A program made the translations under genes and the position numbers. Below are positions 1,847 through 19,123 of a stretch of 31,269 nt of DNA, piece by piece (position 1 is the stretch's first letter; each line of letters opens with the position of its first letter). Below the pieces are notes generated by a model, which saw nothing but the letters and a program-made list of their open reading frames with translations, ran no database searches and had not been told where the DNA came from. Source of the stretch: a virus; the IMG/VR virus record IMGVR_UViG_3300021960_000318, positions 1-31,269 of that record. One strand, given 5' to 3'.

Positions 1847-2153
1847 AACCAGAAAAACTGCAAGTGTTGGAATATACAATGAGCTAATGGCTCAAGCACA
1901 CTTTGCGAAAGATCCAAACAAAATAGTATTCGTACCAGTCATGGGTAAAGGTCCTATAGATATGGTCGTGTTGGATTTAAAGACTGGAGAGTACCAAGCC
2001 TATGATGTCAAATCAGTCAATAAAAGGAAAAAAGACTACATCCCCAATGATAAATACAAAAGAAATGCAATAGGATCAATCATAAGGAGAGGATTGACAG
2101 ACGAGCAAAAAAAACTAAAAGTTAAGATCTATTACAATGAAACTAACAGCTAA
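1839..2153 (+). CDS. PD-(D/E)XK-like nuclease-fold protein
   Basis: A 104-residue protein. The order of E15 (YNELMAQ), D41 in GPIDMVVLD and D56-x-K58 in YDVKSV is the small PD-(D/E)XK core seen in Holliday-junction-resolvase-like and restriction-like phage proteins. A basic tail (VNKRKKDY, YKRNAIGSIIRRG) would suit nucleic-acid binding. The reading is motif-based: spacing fits, but no full-length family match can be claimed. The gene overlaps both the XhlA-like gene upstream (8 bases) and the endolysin downstream (17 bases), so it is translationally embedded in the lysis cassette. A junction-cleaving or host-DNA-degrading role is inference. Confidence 0.55.
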   Translation: MVRTRKTASVGIYNELMAQAHFAKDPNKIVFVPVMGKGPIDMVVLDLKTGEYQAYDVKSVNKRKKDYIPNDKYKRNAIGSIIRRGLTDEQKKLKVKIYYNETNS

Positions 2154-2604
2154 CTTTACCTTAGATGAATTGGTCAAGAGCCAAGTAGCCATTAGAAAAG
2201 GTATTAATAATAACCCATCACCCACTCAAATAGAAAACTTAAAGGCATTAGCAGTTAATATTTTGCAACCAATCCGCAGTCATTTTGACAGACCTCTAAT
2301 CATAAGTTCTGCTTTTCGTTGTGCAGAATTAAACATTGAGATAGGTTCAAAAATTACCAGCGAACATTGTGCAGATAATAAATCCGCAGCTGCTGACTTT
2401 GAAATACCTAATGTTGACAATAAAGAATTAGCACAATGGATTAGAGATAACCTTGAATGGAATCAATTAATCCTTGAATTCTACAAGGATGGAGAACCAT
2501 CATCTGGTTGGGTTCATTGCTCATACTCTACTGACTTAAATCGTAAGGAGTCATTGATTGCTTACAAGGATAATGATAATAAAACAAAATACAAACCTTG
2601 GTAA
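2137..2604 (+). CDS. Endolysin, peptidase M15-family (D,D-/L,D-carboxypeptidase-like)
   Basis: A 155-residue protein matching the phage Peptidase_M15_3 type. Zinc ligands are recognisable: H77 in SEHCADNKSAAAD, D87 in the same motif, and H127 in GWVHCSY, with a preceding ISSAFRC segment. These enzymes cleave peptide bonds of the peptidoglycan stem or cross-link. The N-terminal FTLDELVKSQVA stretch is the usual lead-in of this family. There is no signal peptide, so access to the wall would depend on a holin, and a holin candidate starts six bases after the stop. The start overlaps the upstream gene by 17 bases. Confidence 0.88.
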   Translation: MKLTANFTLDELVKSQVAIRKGINNNPSPTQIENLKALAVNILQPIRSHFDRPLIISSAFRCAELNIEIGSKITSEHCADNKSAAADFEIPNVDNKELAQWIRDNLEWNQLILEFYKDGEPSSGWVHCSYSTDLNRKESLIAYKDNDNKTKYKPW

Positions 2605-2609
2605 ATATT

Positions 2610-2990
2610 ATGTGGTTTAATTTAATAGGAATGGCACTTAAGACAGGTGCAGAAGTATATAAAAATAAAAAAGAAGCTCAACAATTAGAGTCTGTAGCTG
2701 AAAAAAACTATATGGCTAAAATGGCTTCTGGTGAAATTGAATACCAGAAAGCCATAATGGACAACAACAATCAAGGATGGAAAGATGAGCTAGTTCTCAT
2801 CATTGTAGTGCTCCCTATTGTTATATTATCTTGGTCTATATTTAGTGGTGATCCTCAAGCAAAAGAAAAATTAGATTTATTCTTTGAATATTTTAATAAT
2901 TTTCCTGATTTTTATAAATTTTTAGTTTTAGGAATTTTTGGCAGCATATACGGACTTAAGCCAGGATTAGATTTGTTTAAGAAAAAATAA
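2610..2990 (+). CDS. Holin, '3TM-type' family
   Basis: The first ATG is at 2610; the frame is also open from a TTG at 2598, but ATG is preferred. The 126-residue product has an amphipathic N-terminal helix, two clear membrane segments at about 60-79 (ELVLIIVVLPIVILSW) and 102-118 (YKFLVLGIFGSIYGL), and a basic KKK tail. This layout, with the WKDE turn before the first strong helix, resembles the GTA/3TM holin family. It directly follows the M15 endolysin, completing the lysis pair. Confidence 0.75.
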   Translation: MWFNLIGMALKTGAEVYKNKKEAQQLESVAEKNYMAKMASGEIEYQKAIMDNNNQGWKDELVLIIVVLPIVILSWSIFSGDPQAKEKLDLFFEYFNNFPDFYKFLVLGIFGSIYGLKPGLDLFKKK

Positions 2991-2991
2991 T

Positions 2992-3105
2992 ATGAGCCAA
3001 CAAGTTACAACAATGTTCGTTAGTCAGTATAGAAAGAAGAAACCTAGCTTACTGTCTCAACAAACAGGTAAGTTAAAGCGAAAGAAAAAATCTAAGAAGA
3101 AGTAA
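2992..3105 (+). CDS. 37-aa basic peptide resembling the capsid N-terminus
   Basis: ATG at 2992 lies one base after the holin stop; the stop TAA 3103-3105 overlaps the next ATG. The first 13 residues (MSQQVTTMFVSQY) match those of the major capsid protein at 18260 (MSNQVTTAFVQQY) at 10 positions, and both continue to an LSQQxG block seven or so residues later. The capsid homology then stops, and the rest is Lys/Arg-rich (KLKRKKKSKKK). This looks like a capsid N-arm motif on a polybasic tail. Function is unknown: binding the capsid interior, scaffold or packaged DNA are possibilities. Confidence 0.6.
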   Translation: MSQQVTTMFVSQYRKKKPSLLSQQTGKLKRKKKSKKK

Positions 3106-3254
3106 TGGCTAAGAAATTTAATATGGATAAAGCTATCCATACACCCATTAGCAAGAACACTTCTGTTGCTTCCAACCCAATAAAAATTAAATGGTCGTCT
3201 ATGAATAAACATAAACGAAGAAGTTTTAAAATCAATAGAGGTCAAGGTAGATGA
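3105..3254 (+). CDS. Small basic hypothetical protein (49 aa)
   Basis: It starts at ATG 3105, overlapping the previous stop as TAATG, and ends TGA 3252-3254 in an ATGA overlap with the next gene. The product is short and basic, ending SMNKHKRRSFKINRGQGR, with no membrane segment or Cys. The stop/start couplings on both sides support translation as part of a polycistron. I do not recognise a family; it is one of a run of small basic proteins between lysis genes and the 4.6 kb terminator. Confidence 0.55.
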   Translation: MAKKFNMDKAIHTPISKNTSVASNPIKIKWSSMNKHKRRSFKINRGQGR

Positions 3255-3442
3255 AACTAACTTTGGTTCTGCTTACCATTTATGGACCACTTAGTTATAC
3301 CTTTGATGAACCTAAAGATTGCATTGAATTAGGTGAGAAACAAATAGAATTATTAGCAGACTATAAAAACTTTGGTAAAGACCAAGGTTGGTACACTCAA
3401 GATGGTAATTTAATATATGGATTTTTTTGTAATACAGAATGA
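3251..3442 (+). CDS. Small exported Cys-containing protein
   Basis: A 63-residue product opening with a signal-like hydrophobic segment (MKLTLVLLTIYGPLSYTF), then C23 in EPKDCIELG and C60 in GFFCNTE, which could pair in the periplasm. The design matches the protein at 1362-1574: signal, a DC-x-x-x-G segment and a terminal FxC. The start overlaps the preceding stop (ATGA). The family is not identified. Confidence 0.6.
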   Translation: MKLTLVLLTIYGPLSYTFDEPKDCIELGEKQIELLADYKNFGKDQGWYTQDGNLIYGFFCNTE

Positions 3443-3542
3443 AATAGAATTTATTAACGCAGGTACGTTTCAAGAGTATGATTATACTTGTGAGGATGCT
3501 GAGTGCGAATGGAAACAAATAACTGAGTATTGGAGAAAATAA
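3417..3542 (+). CDS. Small acidic hypothetical protein (41 aa)
   Basis: A frame from ATG 3417 to TAA 3540-3542, overlapping the preceding gene by 26 bases and joined to the next by a TAATG overlap. The product is acidic (YDYTCEDAECEWKQITEYWRK), with a closely spaced Cys pair, unlike its basic neighbours. No Shine-Dalgarno is obvious, so translation would depend on coupling. Kept because it fills the gap exactly between two coupled genes. Confidence 0.4.
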   Translation: MDFFVIQNEIEFINAGTFQEYDYTCEDAECEWKQITEYWRK

Positions 3543-3718
3543 TGTATTCACTTTTAATTTATAATGAGAAAGAATCTCGTTGGCATTTCTTTACTAATGA
3601 GGTTTGGCAAACAAGGAAAGAAGCTGAGACTTATGCCAAGCAAAACAAGTTTAAAAAATCTGTACAATGGAAAGTCTTATGGTATGATCCTAAATATAAA
3701 ATTAGTATAACTAAATAA
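3542..3718 (+). CDS. Small hypothetical phage protein (58 aa)
   Basis: ATG at 3542 is used, coupled by TAATG to the previous stop; a TTG at 3530 is also in frame. The product begins MYSLLIYNEKESRWHFF, continues with a helix (TRKEAETYAKQNKFKK) and ends with a WKVLWYDP strand, suggesting a compact alpha/beta fold. No catalytic motif is visible. I recognise the type as a recurrent small phage protein without known function. Confidence 0.6.
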   Translation: MYSLLIYNEKESRWHFFTNEVWQTRKEAETYAKQNKFKKSVQWKVLWYDPKYKISITK

Positions 3719-3722
3719 CATT

Positions 3723-3971
3723 ATGGCAATCACATATCGAGGCGAAAGATTTTCAGGTTATAACAAACCTAAGAATGCTAGGACTAAGACTAAGAAGTTT
3801 GCAGTTCTAGCCAAGTCAGGTAGTAGAGTTAGACTGATTAGATATGGTGATGCTAATATGACCATCAAAAAGAATATTCCATCAAGACGTAAATCATTCA
3901 GAGCTAGACACAACTGTGCTACTGCTACTAATAAACTAACTGCAAGATATTGGTCCTGTAAGAAATGGTAA
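3723..3971 (+). CDS. Conserved basic phage protein (DUF6321-like)
   Basis: An 82-residue, Arg/Lys-rich protein with the conserved-looking blocks FSGYNKPK, KKFAVLAKSG, VRLIRYGDANMTIKK, RRKSFRARHNC and ARYWSCKKW. These blocks are familiar from a widespread phage protein of unknown function (I believe DUF6321); the name is from memory. The protein is probably nucleic-acid associated or structural given its charge. Two Cys near the C-terminus (C70 and C79) with an upstream His might bind metal. Overlaps the next gene by 7 bases. Confidence 0.72.
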   Translation: MAITYRGERFSGYNKPKNARTKTKKFAVLAKSGSRVRLIRYGDANMTIKKNIPSRRKSFRARHNCATATNKLTARYWSCKKW

Positions 3972-4234
3972 TCAAAAAAACTTGGAACAGAGCTAAAGTC
4001 AATATTAAAGTTGGTGAATGCGAGATGTGTCATCGTAAGATCTACAACAAAGATGGTAATTGGATCATCAATGCTGCCGGTAAATACTTCTGTGATGACA
4101 TACAAAAAGAAGATAGCTGTTTTGATAAATATTTGGTATCAATAAAGGATAAACCTAGCAAGTTTAGTCATTACGAAAACTTCTTACAAAGAAGAGAACA
4201 GTTCTACTCAGCTGCTAGATACAACAAACGATAG
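3965..4234 (+). CDS. Four-Cys zinc-finger-like protein
   Basis: An 89-residue product with C19-x2-C22 (GECEMCHRK), then C43 in KYFCDD and C52 in DSCFDKY, an arrangement compatible with a treble-clef or zinc-ribbon site. The rest is basic and aromatic. It overlaps the basic protein upstream by 7 bases and is co-oriented with a run of other small proteins. It may bind DNA or RNA; no family is recognised. Confidence 0.6.
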   Translation: MVIKKTWNRAKVNIKVGECEMCHRKIYNKDGNWIINAAGKYFCDDIQKEDSCFDKYLVSIKDKPSKFSHYENFLQRREQFYSAARYNKR

Positions 4235-4239
4235 TCGTC

Positions 4240-4422
4240 ATGTCATTAACTGACTTGATTGCTAAACTAACAGGAGAAAAAATTGTGCCACTTACAAAAA
4301 AAGGAAATAAGATGATGAGTTCTATGAAGAAACAATATGGAATGAAAAAAGGTAAATCAGTTTTTTATGCCACAGTTAAAAAGAAAAAATTAAAAGGCAT
4401 GGAAAGAAAGAAGAAAAAATAA
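4240..4422 (+). CDS. Small basic conserved phage protein
   Basis: A 60-residue product whose core PLTKKGNKMMSSMKKQYGM followed by KKGKSVFYATVKKKKLKG matches a very common small phage protein of unknown function. The conserved part starts near residue 17; the first 15 residues (MSLTDLIAKLTGEKI) may be an extension or a misassigned start, since a GTG at 4285 is in frame just before the core. The stop overlaps the next ATG (TAATG). Confidence 0.7.
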   Translation: MSLTDLIAKLTGEKIVPLTKKGNKMMSSMKKQYGMKKGKSVFYATVKKKKLKGMERKKKK

Positions 4423-4586
4423 TGGTATCAAAATATCACACAACTAAATCTGGTAAAAAAGCTCGTAAAGGTTTGTATTACAACATAAACCAAAGAAAGA
4501 AAAAAGGTACTAGTCGTAACAAATCAAAATCAACAGTATCTGCCAAAGCATTTAGAAATATGCTTTTAGGTTTTCCTAAGAAATAA
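4422..4586 (+). CDS. Small basic conserved phage protein
   Basis: ATG 4422 overlaps the previous stop; the frame ends TAA 4584-4586, giving 54 residues. The sequence GKKARKGLYYNINQRKK and the ending STVSAKAFRNMLLGFPKK match another very common small phage protein often found beside the KKGKSVFYA protein. The function is not known. It is the last rightward gene before the terminator at 4591-4653. Confidence 0.7.
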   Translation: MVSKYHTTKSGKKARKGLYYNINQRKKKGTSRNKSKSTVSAKAFRNMLLGFPKK

Positions 4587-8416: not shown

Positions 8417-8565
8417 CAGACATAGATATGTTTGCTGACTACAAAGGTAAGATTAAGAAACTAAAAAAAATAATTGAAGATCAAAGAAAAGAAATTGATA
8501 CCTTGAAACAAATCATACAATTTCAGGAGCTACAATTAGAACAAAAAGAGGATAGAGATGAGTAA
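8413..8565 (+). CDS. Small coiled-coil protein (50 aa)
   Basis: ATG 8413 overlaps the previous stop (ATGA); the frame ends TAA 8563-8565, overlapping the methyltransferase start by 8 bases. The product is one long charged helix (YKGKIKKLKKIIEDQRKEI, LKQIIQFQELQLEQKE) with Leu/Ile at heptad positions, so probably a dimeric coiled coil. Tiny helical proteins of this kind are common immediately before phage methyltransferase genes. No family name assigned. Confidence 0.6.
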   Translation: MTDIDMFADYKGKIKKLKKIIEDQRKEIDTLKQIIQFQELQLEQKEDRDE

Positions 8566-9703
8566 GTTAAAATTACTAGATCTATTTAGTGGTATAGGTG
8601 GGTTTAGTTTAGGGTTAGAAAGTACCGGTGGATTTGAAACCATTGCTTTCGTAGAAAAGGATAAGTTTTGTCAAAAAGTATTAGCTAAAAATTTTAATAA
8701 AATAACAATCGAAGGAGAAATAAGAAATGTCAAAGGAGAAAAATACAAAGCAGACATCATCACAGCTGGTTTCCCCTGCCAACCATTTAGTGTCGCAGGA
8801 AAAAGAAAAGGAAAGGATGACGACAGATACTTGTGGGACGAAACCATTAGAGTTATTAGAGAATGTAAACCTAAGTGGTTCGTTGGCGAAAATGTGGAAG
8901 GCATTGTTAACATCGCAAATGGTACAGTCTTGCAGCAGATACAACAAGACCTGGAAAAAGAGGGTTTCGAAGTCCAATGTGGTATTATTCCAGCTTCAGG
9001 CATCGGTGCGTGGCATCAAAGAAAAAGAGTTTGGATCATCGGATATAACTTATCCAACGCCAACAACAATGTTTCCAACTCCAGTGACAGGCGACAGTTC
9101 AACGGAAAATATAGAAACTTGGAAACTAAGACAGAAAAAGAAAAAAGAACAAGGTATCAACCTACATTTCAAACTTTGTCATCATATTCAGATGTACCCA
9201 ACACCAACTCAGGGAATGTGGAAGCAAGATGTGAACGACAACGGAGAATACGCCAAGAGAGTGAAGGAGAAAGGTCATCAAGTAATGCTACCAACATTTG
9301 TGAAACTTTATCCAACACCAACAGCATCAGACTCCGAGGGTGGAGTAGCAAAGGATGTGCAAATGAAGGATGGTCATTTCTTCCGAAAGAACAAGAAGGG
9401 AGAGAGATGGGGAGTGAAACTTCGAGACGCAATATCCATACTTCCAACTCCGACAGCGAGGGATTACAAGGATGCAGCTTACCAACCGAATTGGAAAGAG
9501 AGCAGAGACAAGTCATTACCAAGAGAGATACTGAAAGACAACAAACCTGGTGGGAGGCTCAATCCGATATTTGTAGAAATGTTAATGGCATATCCTATGA
9601 ATTGGACAAAGATAGAACCAACAGAATAAAGGCTTTAGGTAATTCAATAGTACCTTTGATAGCTAGAGAGATAGGACTTGCGATCTTAGAGGCAGAAAAG
9701 TGA
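8558..9703 (+). CDS. DNA (cytosine-5) methyltransferase
   Basis: A 381-residue C5 MTase. Motif I is LLDLFSGIGGFSLGL (6-20); motif IV GFPCQPFSVAG (71-81) contains the nucleophile C74; motif VI is ENVEG (111-115); motif VIII is QRKRVW (154-159); motif X is RIKALGNSIVP (356-366). It would transfer methyl from S-adenosylmethionine to cytosine, shielding phage DNA from host nucleases or altering regulation. The region between motifs VIII and X (about 165-350, the target-recognition part) is Ser/Asn/Arg-rich and low-complexity, with repeated S-N-x-N-S segments. The same DNA is open in another frame with its own MTase-like motifs (8727-9629). AGAGG lies just before the start, which overlaps the upstream gene. 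Confidence 0.88.
   Translation: MSKLKLLDLFSGIGGFSLGLESTGGFETIAFVEKDKFCQKVLAKNFNKITIEGEIRNVKGEKYKADIITAGFPCQPFSVAGKRKGKDDDRYLWDETIRVIRECKPKWFVGENVEGIVNIANGTVLQQIQQDLEKEGFEVQCGIIPASGIGAWHQRKRVWIIGYNLSNANNNVSNSSDRRQFNGKYRNLETKTEKEKRTRYQPTFQTLSSYSDVPNTNSGNVEARCERQRRIRQESEGERSSSNATNICETLSNTNSIRLRGWSSKGCANEGWSFLPKEQEGREMGSETSRRNIHTSNSDSEGLQGCSLPTELEREQRQVITKRDTERQQTWWEAQSDICRNVNGISYELDKDRTNRIKALGNSIVPLIAREIGLAILEAEK
8727..9629 (+). CDS. Alternative-frame ORF inside the methyltransferase gene with MTase C-terminal motifs
   Basis: A 300-residue frame (+1 relative to the MTase) starting ATG 8727, with AAGGAG nine bases upstream (8712-8717). Residues 1-105 look like noise, but from about 109 it carries repeated PTP motifs (110, 117, 158, 196, 240), including YPTPTASDSEGG and LPTPTARDYKDA, and ends GGRLNPIFVEMLMAYPMNWT (275-294). 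Those are hallmarks of the C-terminal part of many phage C5 MTases. The frame stops just before motif X, which is in the main frame. It may be a relic of a frameshifted TRD, a real overlapping gene, or the product of programmed frameshifting. Confidence 0.4.
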   Translation: MSKEKNTKQTSSQLVSPANHLVSQEKEKERMTTDTCGTKPLELLENVNLSGSLAKMWKALLTSQMVQSCSRYNKTWKKRVSKSNVVLFQLQASVRGIKEKEFGSSDITYPTPTTMFPTPVTGDSSTENIETWKLRQKKKKEQGINLHFKLCHHIQMYPTPTQGMWKQDVNDNGEYAKRVKEKGHQVMLPTFVKLYPTPTASDSEGGVAKDVQMKDGHFFRKNKKGERWGVKLRDAISILPTPTARDYKDAAYQPNWKESRDKSLPREILKDNKPGGRLNPIFVEMLMAYPMNWTKIEPTE

Positions 9704-17110: not shown

Positions 17111-17989
17111 ATGTCAGAACAAACACAGATAACGGAGCAAACCGCTTCGCCTGTAGAAACGACATCTACAGAAACTAAAACAGAAACAACTCAACAACCT
17201 GTATCTTCCACTACGACACAAACCAATACCGTAGCGAAATCTTGGAAAGATATTATTTCAGAAGAATTTAGAAACGATCCTAACATTGCTAAGTTTACTG
17301 AGATTGATGCATTAGCTAAGTCTTACATCAATGCTACAAGAATGATTGGCTCAGATAAAGTGGTTATTCCAAATCAAAACTCTACTGAAGATCAATGGAA
17401 CGAAGTATATGGTAAGTTAGGCAGACCTGAATCACCAGACAAATATAAGTTTGATGTTAAATCAGAAGTCATACCTTTTGCTGACAATGTCATTAAACAA
17501 TATGCAGACAATGTTCATAAGTTAGGTTTAAATAATAAACAGGCACAAGGAATATTAGAGTTTTATAAAAACTCAATGGAACAATCTGCCAAGCAATCTC
17601 AAATTGATATGGAAACTGCAAAAGAACAATCTCAACAACAGTTAAGACAAGAATGGGGTAGAGCTTATGATGATAACCTTAAGAAAGCGGGTGCGGTTGC
17701 AAAAGCTAATTTAAACTCACAAATCTTAGACATGCAATTAAAGGATGGTTCAAGATTAGGAGATAATCCTGAGATCATTAAAGGCTTTGCTAAGATTGCT
17801 AATCTTCTATCTGAAGATAGTATGGTATCAACTGAAAGCGAAAGCGTTAATCAAGGTAAGGATCTTGAAACTGAAATATCAAGAATTACTAATGATAAGT
17901 CAAATCCTTATTGGAACAAGTCTCATCCTGATCATACGAAGATGGTACAACAAGTATTAACTTTAAGAGAAATGCTCAATGCCAGATAA
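17111..17989 (+). CDS. Scaffolding / capsid assembly protein
   Basis: A 292-residue protein. The first 45 residues are Thr/Gln/Glu-rich and probably disordered; then SWKDIISEEFRNDPNIAKF, LAKSYINATRMIGSDKV, LGRPESPDKYKFD and a long Gln/Lys helix (AKEQSQQQLRQEWGRAYDDNLKK). These blocks are typical of T7-like scaffolds. It sits between portal and capsid genes, as gp9 does in T7. It would template procapsid assembly and leave before or during packaging. AAAGGAAAATAAAA precedes the start. Confidence 0.88.
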   Translation: MSEQTQITEQTASPVETTSTETKTETTQQPVSSTTTQTNTVAKSWKDIISEEFRNDPNIAKFTEIDALAKSYINATRMIGSDKVVIPNQNSTEDQWNEVYGKLGRPESPDKYKFDVKSEVIPFADNVIKQYADNVHKLGLNNKQAQGILEFYKNSMEQSAKQSQIDMETAKEQSQQQLRQEWGRAYDDNLKKAGAVAKANLNSQILDMQLKDGSRLGDNPEIIKGFAKIANLLSEDSMVSTESESVNQGKDLETEISRITNDKSNPYWNKSHPDHTKMVQQVLTLREMLNAR

Positions 17990-18259: not shown

Positions 18260-19123
18260 ATGTCTAATCAAGTAACAACAGCTTTTGTACAGCAGTATTC
18301 AGCTAACGTACAAATGCTATCTCAACAAATGGGTTCATTATTGAGAGATAAAGTTCGTCTTGAAAGCGTTGTTGGTAAGAATGCATTTTTCGATCAAGTG
18401 GGTTCTGTAACTGCTATCAAAAGAACTAGCAGGCACGGAGACACTCCACAAATCGATACTCCTCATGCAAGAAGAAGAGTATCTTTAGTGGATTACGAAT
18501 TTGCTGACCTTATCGATGATCAAGATAAAGTACGAATGTTAATCGACCCAACATCATCTTATGCTCAAGCTGCAGCTTACGCTATGGGTAGAGCTATGGA
18601 TGATGAAATCATTGCTGCCGCTTTAGGCACATCATACACAGGTGAAACTGGAAGTACATCAACTCCACTACCTTCTGGACAGAAGATAGTTGAAGCTGGT
18701 ACAGATGGTTTAACTATTGCTAAATTAAGAAACACTAAGAAGATTCTTGATTTAAACAATGTTGATCCTTCAATTCCTAGATTCATAGTTGTTGGTCCTA
18801 AACAGATCGATGATTTATTAGGTACAACTCAAGTAACAAGTTCAGATTTCAACACAGTTAAAGCATTAGCTAATGGTGAAATTAACTCGTTCTTAGGGTT
18901 TAATTTTATAATGTCAAACAGACTAACTACAACAGGATCTATGAGACAATGCATTGCATTTGCTCAAGACGGTCTTGCACTAGGAGTTGGTAAAGATGTA
19001 ATGGCTAGAATAGACGAGAGAGCTGACAAAGGTTACGCTACTCAAGTTTACTACTGTGCTTCTTTCGGCTCAACTAGAATGGAAGAAGAAAAAGTTGTAG
19101 AAGTCCAAGCCTACGAGGCGTAA
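18260..19123 (+). CDS. Major capsid protein
   Basis: A 287-residue protein with N-terminal arm MSNQVTTAFVQQYSANVQ, then KVRLESVVGKNAFFDQVGSV, and a HK97-type body with ALGTSYTG, FIVVGPKQIDDLLGTTQVTSSDFN and YCASFGSTRMEEEKVVEVQ near the end. The length and gene order (after scaffold, before a small beta protein) fit podovirus capsids of marine phages; it is shorter than the T7 capsid (345). Strong GGAGAGAC Shine-Dalgarno. The N-arm is echoed in the 37-residue peptide at 2992. Confidence 0.92.
   Translation: MSNQVTTAFVQQYSANVQMLSQQMGSLLRDKVRLESVVGKNAFFDQVGSVTAIKRTSRHGDTPQIDTPHARRRVSLVDYEFADLIDDQDKVRMLIDPTSSYAQAAAYAMGRAMDDEIIAAALGTSYTGETGSTSTPLPSGQKIVEAGTDGLTIAKLRNTKKILDLNNVDPSIPRFIVVGPKQIDDLLGTTQVTSSDFNTVKALANGEINSFLGFNFIMSNRLTTTGSMRQCIAFAQDGLALGVGKDVMARIDERADKGYATQVYYCASFGSTRMEEEKVVEVQAYEA

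Follow-up and report, generated by a model that had tools for sequence, protein, structure and literature searches.

A lysine-rich phage peptide begins like the major capsid protein of its own phage in three capsid lineages

A small basic peptide with a capsid-like N-terminus

Why would a phage encode, far from its capsid gene, a short basic peptide that starts like the capsid protein? The question is raised by a 31,269-base virus record, which we call the window (the whole stretch of DNA analysed). The sequence identifies the window as an HTVC010P-type pelagiphage. Matches to its head genes occur in 23 phage records, at 60-80% identity, and 22 of these records belong to HTVC010P-like Pelagibacter phages. 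It encodes a 37-residue, Lys-rich peptide (MSQQVTTMFVSQYRKKKPSLLSQQTGKLKRKKKSKKK; 2992..3105, + strand) with a net charge of +13 and with homologues in relatives. Residues 1-26 of the peptide (MSQQVTTMFVSQYRKKKPSLLSQQTG; 2992..3069, +), here termed the tag, resemble residues 1-25 of the major capsid protein (MCP) and are followed by a polybasic tail, KLKRKKKSKKK (3070..3102, +). The MCP (18260..19123, +) begins MSNQVTTAFVQQYSANVQMLSQQMGS and matches PF19821, Phage_capsid_2 (E 3.9e-97), and phrog_3437. Its N-terminal arm (18260..18334, +), the original of the tag, is predicted with low confidence to form a helix at residues 4-24.

The resemblance had been described as 10 identities among the first 13 residues, with LSQQxG in both proteins at nearly the same distance, and both statements hold when re-read from ORF 2992-3105 and MCP 18260-19123; in the peptide the motif lies one residue later. 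As also described, the two genes are far apart: 15 kb separates the ORF of the peptide from the MCP gene, which it therefore does not adjoin as a scaffold-type gene would. The description of similarity followed by a Lys-rich tail needs adjustment, since both elements are present but the shared stretch reaches residue 26 and basic residues (RKKKP) begin inside it; tag and tail therefore overlap. The peptide has the arm in common with the capsid protein and lacks its HK97-fold capsid domain (PF19821/phrog_3437).

When 801 start positions were scored against the MCP N-terminus (anchored, ungapped BLOSUM62), the peptide reached 43 and the next best start in the window 16; with 100 shuffled N-termini, the highest anchored score was 25, compared with 43 for the real one. 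Gapped local alignment of the peptide with MCP residues 1-32 scored 73, the best of any small ORF, and for each of seven other 32-residue MCP segments the best small ORF scored 28-36. In a comparison over 12 genomes, 264 other ORFs (at least 150 residues long) had N-termini scoring 33.8 on average (SD 4.7, maximum 60), and the 12 MCP N-termini scored 30 to 73; among ORF N-termini, the MCP ranked first in 7 of the 12 genomes, took second or third place in 4 and came 19th in HTVC028P. Among 38,880 PHROG families, only the major head protein family, phrog_3437, matched the peptide (E 0.036), with residues 1-31 aligned to positions 3-33 of the profile. The window peptide had no Pfam match, and Pfam and NCBIfam searches of the peptides were uninformative. 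The peptide-capsid resemblance is beyond chance, and the initial observation is confirmed. The predicted model of this capsid type (lineage A below) has a mean pLDDT of 56, falling near 42 in the N-terminal helix; the AlphaFold model of the B2 capsid described below has a mean of 35, and the closest solved capsid structure is 9eg4 (E 4.5e-10).

The peptide gene lies among late/head genes. Upstream are an M15 peptidase gene (2137..2604, +), which defines the genomic slot used below, and, between it and the peptide, a gene for a phrog_2524 protein (2598..2990, +). Strongly basic small ORFs run on after the peptide (3105-4586), namely 3105-3254 (net charge +12), 3723-3971 (+21), 4240-4422 (+17) and 4422-4586 (+17). 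The first of these ends in an RGQG motif, which many relatives also have at that slot. The last is a 54-residue Lys-rich ORF (phrog_25774); its relative in HTVC019P, gp30 (73% identity over 37 residues), is encoded immediately between the genes for head assembly and the major head protein, a further hint that these short basic products are head components. Elsewhere, ORF 8558-9703 contains a PCQP motif, typical of DNA cytosine-5 methyltransferases, and a second long reading frame (8727-9629) overlaps it.

Upstream of the MCP gene, 17111..17989 (+) encodes a 292-residue capsid assembly protein of net charge -8 (phrog_3742, phrog_458), with orthologues annotated as "capsid assembly protein". We consider this protein a scaffold candidate and propose it as the putative docking partner of the tag. 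It matches phrog_458 as a "protease" (E 2e-10), yet its composition is hydrophilic and scaffold-like, and its relatives are called "protease" or "capsid assembly protein" depending on the annotator.

Recurrence of the peptide in three capsid lineages

A tblastn search of 50,697 phage records found the peptide in 13, every one a Pelagibacter phage, and in local alignment the slot peptide outscored every other small ORF in 11 of 12 HTVC010P-type genomes (lineage A). Anchored scoring over 13 residues put it on top in only 8 of these 12, an undercount because the peptides of HTVC010P (MITKNFAQQYSRKTSMLSQQTGKKKKKKKYKKKK), HTVC034P (beginning MINKSFAQQYGKKVTMLSQQTGKKYGKK) and HTVC203P start three or more residues later; the Skadi-5 peptide begins MSKGIMTASVSQYKKKTSLLSQQTGK. 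In IMG/VR, a relative is encoded in 129 of 330 candidate stretches, 80 of which were kept, and a motif search of the collected loci returned 83 peptide copies, 35 of them distinct. The peptide is mostly unannotated in HTVC010P-type genomes; under the tblastn matches in HTVC204P and HTVC024P there is no annotated gene. The Greip homologue, gp51 (L006:31861-31977), is annotated as HNH endonuclease-like, a label that is probably spill-over from the adjoining HNH-annotated gene. Invariant columns in ten peptides are M1, S2, Q12, K17, L20, Q23, Q24, G26 and K27, and most of these residues are likewise invariant across 40 MCPs. Within the HTVC010P group, the window peptide retains 12 of 16 MCP-invariant N-terminal residues as against 3 of 10 variable ones.

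Relatives of the M15 peptidase gene upstream of the peptide are found in phages whose MCP belongs to another family (MAISRSQLVKELEPGLNALFG; phrog_371); this lineage, here B1, includes HTVC023P. The M15 genes of lineages A and B1 are 85-90% identical, and the slot peptide beside the B1 copy carries the B1 tag, beginning MAIGRSQMTKQVEGQLRGARKKK next to a nearly identical M15 gene. The HTVC023P-type capsid N-terminus and tagged Lys-rich peptide read MAISRSQLVKELEPG and MAIGRSQMTKQVEG, respectively. A small ORF scoring at least 20 was present in 18 of 88 B1 loci, although one of the 18 (L088) looks like a chance match. Where at least 5 kb was available downstream of the MCP (24 B1 loci), a Lys-rich ORF scored at least 17 against its own N-terminus in 13, against the A N-terminus in none and against the related B2 N-terminus in 8, a best-match tally that is partly circular because the peptides were picked by tag pattern; the other 11 of these contigs showed no tagged Lys-rich ORF.

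A third lineage, B2, is represented by Roseobacter phage CRP-902. The B1 and B2 capsids are Mu-gpT-like, unlike the window MCP. The CRP-902 capsid starts MAMNRASFAKMLEPG and its tagged Lys-rich counterpart reads MTMNRASFGKLMSKG; this unannotated peptide, which begins MTMNRASFGKLMSKGEQKMMYGKKK, is encoded near GroES, inside the head-gene cluster. Among 80 IMG/VR relatives of the CRP-902 capsid, 52 contigs reach the site, and in 50 of them the peptide lies 2.73-2.82 kb upstream of the MCP; by eye, the remaining two carry divergent, untypical versions. Median peptide net charge is +13 in A, +13 in B1 and +17 in B2.

The peptide is not universal. It is absent from HTVC028P, which has the same capsid family as the window, and no tagged small ORF was found in HTVC027P (B1; entire genome, scanned as two pieces), HTVC019P (27 of 42 kb), Alcaligenes phage QDWS535 (first 30 of 50 kb), ct3Et533, or eight other distant A/B relatives, mostly scanned in part. 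The absences from HTVC028P, HTVC027P and the distant relatives indicate that the capsid type can do without the peptide. HTVC027P gp82 (L249:24165-25184; 339 residues) starts MAISRMQQPRQQYGLGS, close to the capsid start of the same phage, MAISRGQLVKELEPGL; this phage, which lacks the small tagged peptide, may have a larger tagged protein instead.

Correspondence with the capsid, modularity and age of the tag

AT-rich genomes make Lys-rich ORFs common, and the tags are short (14-26 residues). We picked slot ORFs by gene position and a K+R content of at least 25%, allowing every in-frame start and making no use of the tag, and scored them against four capsid N-termini (A, B1, B2 and C) with an own-match threshold of 30. 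A tagged ORF was obtained in 71 of 75 slots, and in all 71 the best match was the capsid of the same phage; independent tag-capsid matches number perhaps two to three, because the B1 and B2 capsid N-termini are related. By lineage, matches to the own MCP N-terminus were found in 11 of 12 A slots (the twelfth gave none), in all nine B1 slots (HTVC023P plus eight of 78 loci, those with a capsid and a complete M15 gene), and in 51 of 52 B2 slots, the exception being L328, whose peptide is present just outside the search range. Neither of two genomes with capsid type C (HTVC026P and HTVC112P) gave an ORF above threshold, and in no slot among the 75 was the capsid of a foreign lineage the best match. 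A stricter version of the test (longest ORF only, K+R at least 28%, narrower range) gave 10/12, 4/9 and 42/52 for A, B1 and B2, respectively.

Three N-termini are thus paired with three tags, and this comparison lends strong support to the core of the original prediction, namely that the peptide mimics the capsid arm and carries a basic tail. The accompanying expectation that the peptide tracks the capsid N-terminus is borne out between lineages (71 of 71 slot peptides) and only partially within a lineage. Strict residue-by-residue co-variation within a lineage was rejected, as group A pairs do not show such a pattern; an MCP beginning MSTEITK, for example, occurs with a peptide beginning MSNQAPT, a mismatch at variable positions. 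In B2, the peptide has Q solely where the MCP has AQF (3/8 versus 0/47, Fisher p 0.002), an association that is weak because the contigs are related. Relatives without the peptide had been named as a sign of chance or of a one-off recombination; HTVC028P and distant relatives do lack it, and the between-lineage tracking is nonetheless positive.

Tag and tail also occur apart. A B1 tail, RKKKAPKGYHYMPNGRLMKD, exists untagged in two phages with MCPs that start MANESTSSTLSELY, HTVC026P and HTVC112P, and a B1 tail, KKAPKGYHYMPNGRLMKD, recurs untagged in HTVC026P (83% over the tail), HTVC112P and, by a tblastn match only, HTVC202P; the sample of capsid type C comprises two genomes. The untagged ORFs begin MVKKRRKKAPKGYHYMPDGRLMKD in HTVC026P and MAKKKKTKKVPKGYHRMPNGKLMKD in HTVC112P, and both phages combine another capsid type with an annotated scaffolding protein. 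Because homologous tails are found with and without the tag, tag and tail are separate modules. Conversely, the same tag occurs on different tails within B1, a shared signal of the kind that unites the T4 IP-type internal head proteins.

Could the tag be a relic of a one-off recombination that copied the 5' end of the capsid gene, or a chance likeness, without function? In the window, peptide and MCP use the same codon at 10 of 15 identical residues, and some relatives lack the peptide, as a relic might predict. Across B2, codons agree at 100 of 163 shared residues, compared with 67 expected from codon usage, but codon identity is barely higher for pairs from the same genome (0.523) than for pairs from different genomes (0.495), and 32 distinct tag DNA sequences encode 15 protein tags. 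Together with the recurrence in three lineages, these values point to old, selected tags, and the 71 of 71 slot result already contradicts a relic, which we consider the least probable of the explanations discussed here. We likewise rejected an RNA-level signal or recent copying, on the grounds that codon identity is hardly higher within genomes than between them.

Possible functions and comparison with known systems

What might a capsid N-terminus do on a polybasic peptide? In procapsids of well-studied phages, the MCP N-terminus forms a helix beneath the shell, where it engages the scaffolding protein. According to the available accounts, the N-terminal helix of the SPP1 MCP (gp13) and the N-arm of the P22 MCP (gp5) bind scaffold in the procapsid; on maturation, these arms become extended and contact neighbouring subunits. 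T4 internal proteins are described as carrying an N-terminal capsid-targeting signal (CTS) that directs encapsidation into the scaffolding core, their lysines as contacting DNA phosphates, and in P1 DarB the first 30 residues are reported to suffice for capsid targeting. By analogy with these systems, we put slightly better than even confidence in the peptide being a small internal head protein in which the copied MCP N-arm serves as capsid-targeting signal for a polycationic tail, and we favour scaffold docking as the role of the tag. The tag would bind scaffold, the peptide would be packaged, and the tail would bind DNA. Specifically, the tag most likely represents the scaffold-docking N-arm helix of the capsid copied onto the peptide. 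During shell assembly, the peptide would dock on the scaffold, or take an N-arm position, and be enclosed in the forming head; scaffold exit and DNA entry would then release the tag, leaving the Lys-rich tail on the DNA, where it could neutralise charge and possibly enter the next cell along with the DNA. A broader version, which we hold more tentatively and at somewhat below an even chance, is that the MCP N-arm is a transferable, lineage-specific address tag on polylysine tails in at least three marine-phage capsid lineages, and the peptide a protamine-like microprotein that is scaffold-loaded into procapsids and re-tagged whenever its cassette reaches a phage whose capsid differs.

Other readings accommodate parts of the same evidence. 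As an assembly regulator, the peptide would compete at the N-arm site of the scaffold and tune nucleation, size or scaffold release, with no role as a packaged DNA binder. SaPI CpmB, a small protein described as copying the capsid-binding motif of the scaffold, competing for the capsid and altering its size, is a precedent of which the peptide would be the mirror image, and the opposite charges of scaffold candidate (-8) and peptide (+13) would suit such an interaction. However, a regulator has no need of the long polylysine tail that all three lineages retain, and the T4 internal proteins, as described, offer a simpler use of the lysines; we regard regulation as unlikely, though a reading to be taken seriously. 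The tail also suggests a DNA-facing location, which argues against the improbable alternative that the tag replaces the extended N-arm in the mature shell, in the inter-capsomere groove, as a cement or inner lining. The unfolding of the SPP1 and P22 arms on maturation would favour such a shell binder, but in a low-confidence model the shared residues are helix-like rather than extended.

The likeness might instead be a cleavage recognition sequence, with tag and MCP arm both substrates of a head protease. In T4, one protease is reported to cut both the CTS and MCP propeptides; in our phages, the assembly protein matches the phrog_458 "protease" as above, and the similarity stops near a Gly in each lineage. 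Conservation over 14-25 residues nevertheless exceeds a cleavage motif, and we know of no MCP cleavage in these phages, making shared processing very improbable. Marginally less probable again is that the peptide acts as a decoy, diverting a host or defence factor whose target is the capsid N-terminus. T4 internal proteins are reported to act against host restriction, so small head proteins can be counter-defence, but the same arrangement occurs in Pelagibacter and Roseobacter phages with different capsid N-termini, and a decoy leaves the tail unexplained. To our knowledge, no sensor of the capsid N-terminus has been described.

Of the pelagiphage groups known, the HTVC023P and HTVC010P types are described as the two that are most abundant in the ocean (PMC12753301); if both carry a capsid-tagged polycation, a hidden class of unannotated head proteins would exist in very common viruses. 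The MCP N-arm would then be a simple predictor of small phage ORFs that enter the capsid, and a natural, capsid-specific loading tag of 14-26 residues could serve to bring cargo into phage shells. The tagged peptide would also be a natural test of N-arm/scaffold recognition. In the open-licence literature we found neither an earlier description of capsid-N-terminus-tagged peptides, which is weak evidence of novelty, nor proteomics covering these peptides.

On its sequence features, we provisionally place the peptide among CTS-bearing internal head proteins, as an apparently undescribed variant. Like T4 IPI, IPII, IPIII and Alt, as these are described, it belongs to a set of otherwise diverse, often basic small proteins with a short N-terminal signal. 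The T4 CTS is removed by the gp21 protease. We know of no indication that this signal copies the MCP N-terminus; in the present phages, by contrast, the tag reproduces the start of the MCP, changes with capsid lineage and is not known to be cleaved. With P1 DarB the peptide would share a capsid-targeting signal at the N-terminus (30 residues in DarB), but DarB is about 250 kDa, and the available portion of its description mentions no likeness to the P1 capsid N-terminus. SaPI1 CpmB, as far as it is described, is likewise a small protein with a copied assembly motif at the capsid-scaffold interface, where the peptide would also act; CpmB copies the motif of the scaffold, whereas the peptide copies that of the capsid. 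Finally, SPP1 gp13 and P22 gp5 are reported to use an N-terminal helix as a scaffold site, as the predicted helix of the peptide may do, yet their arm is part of the capsid protein, whereas here the sequence is repeated on a separate peptide.
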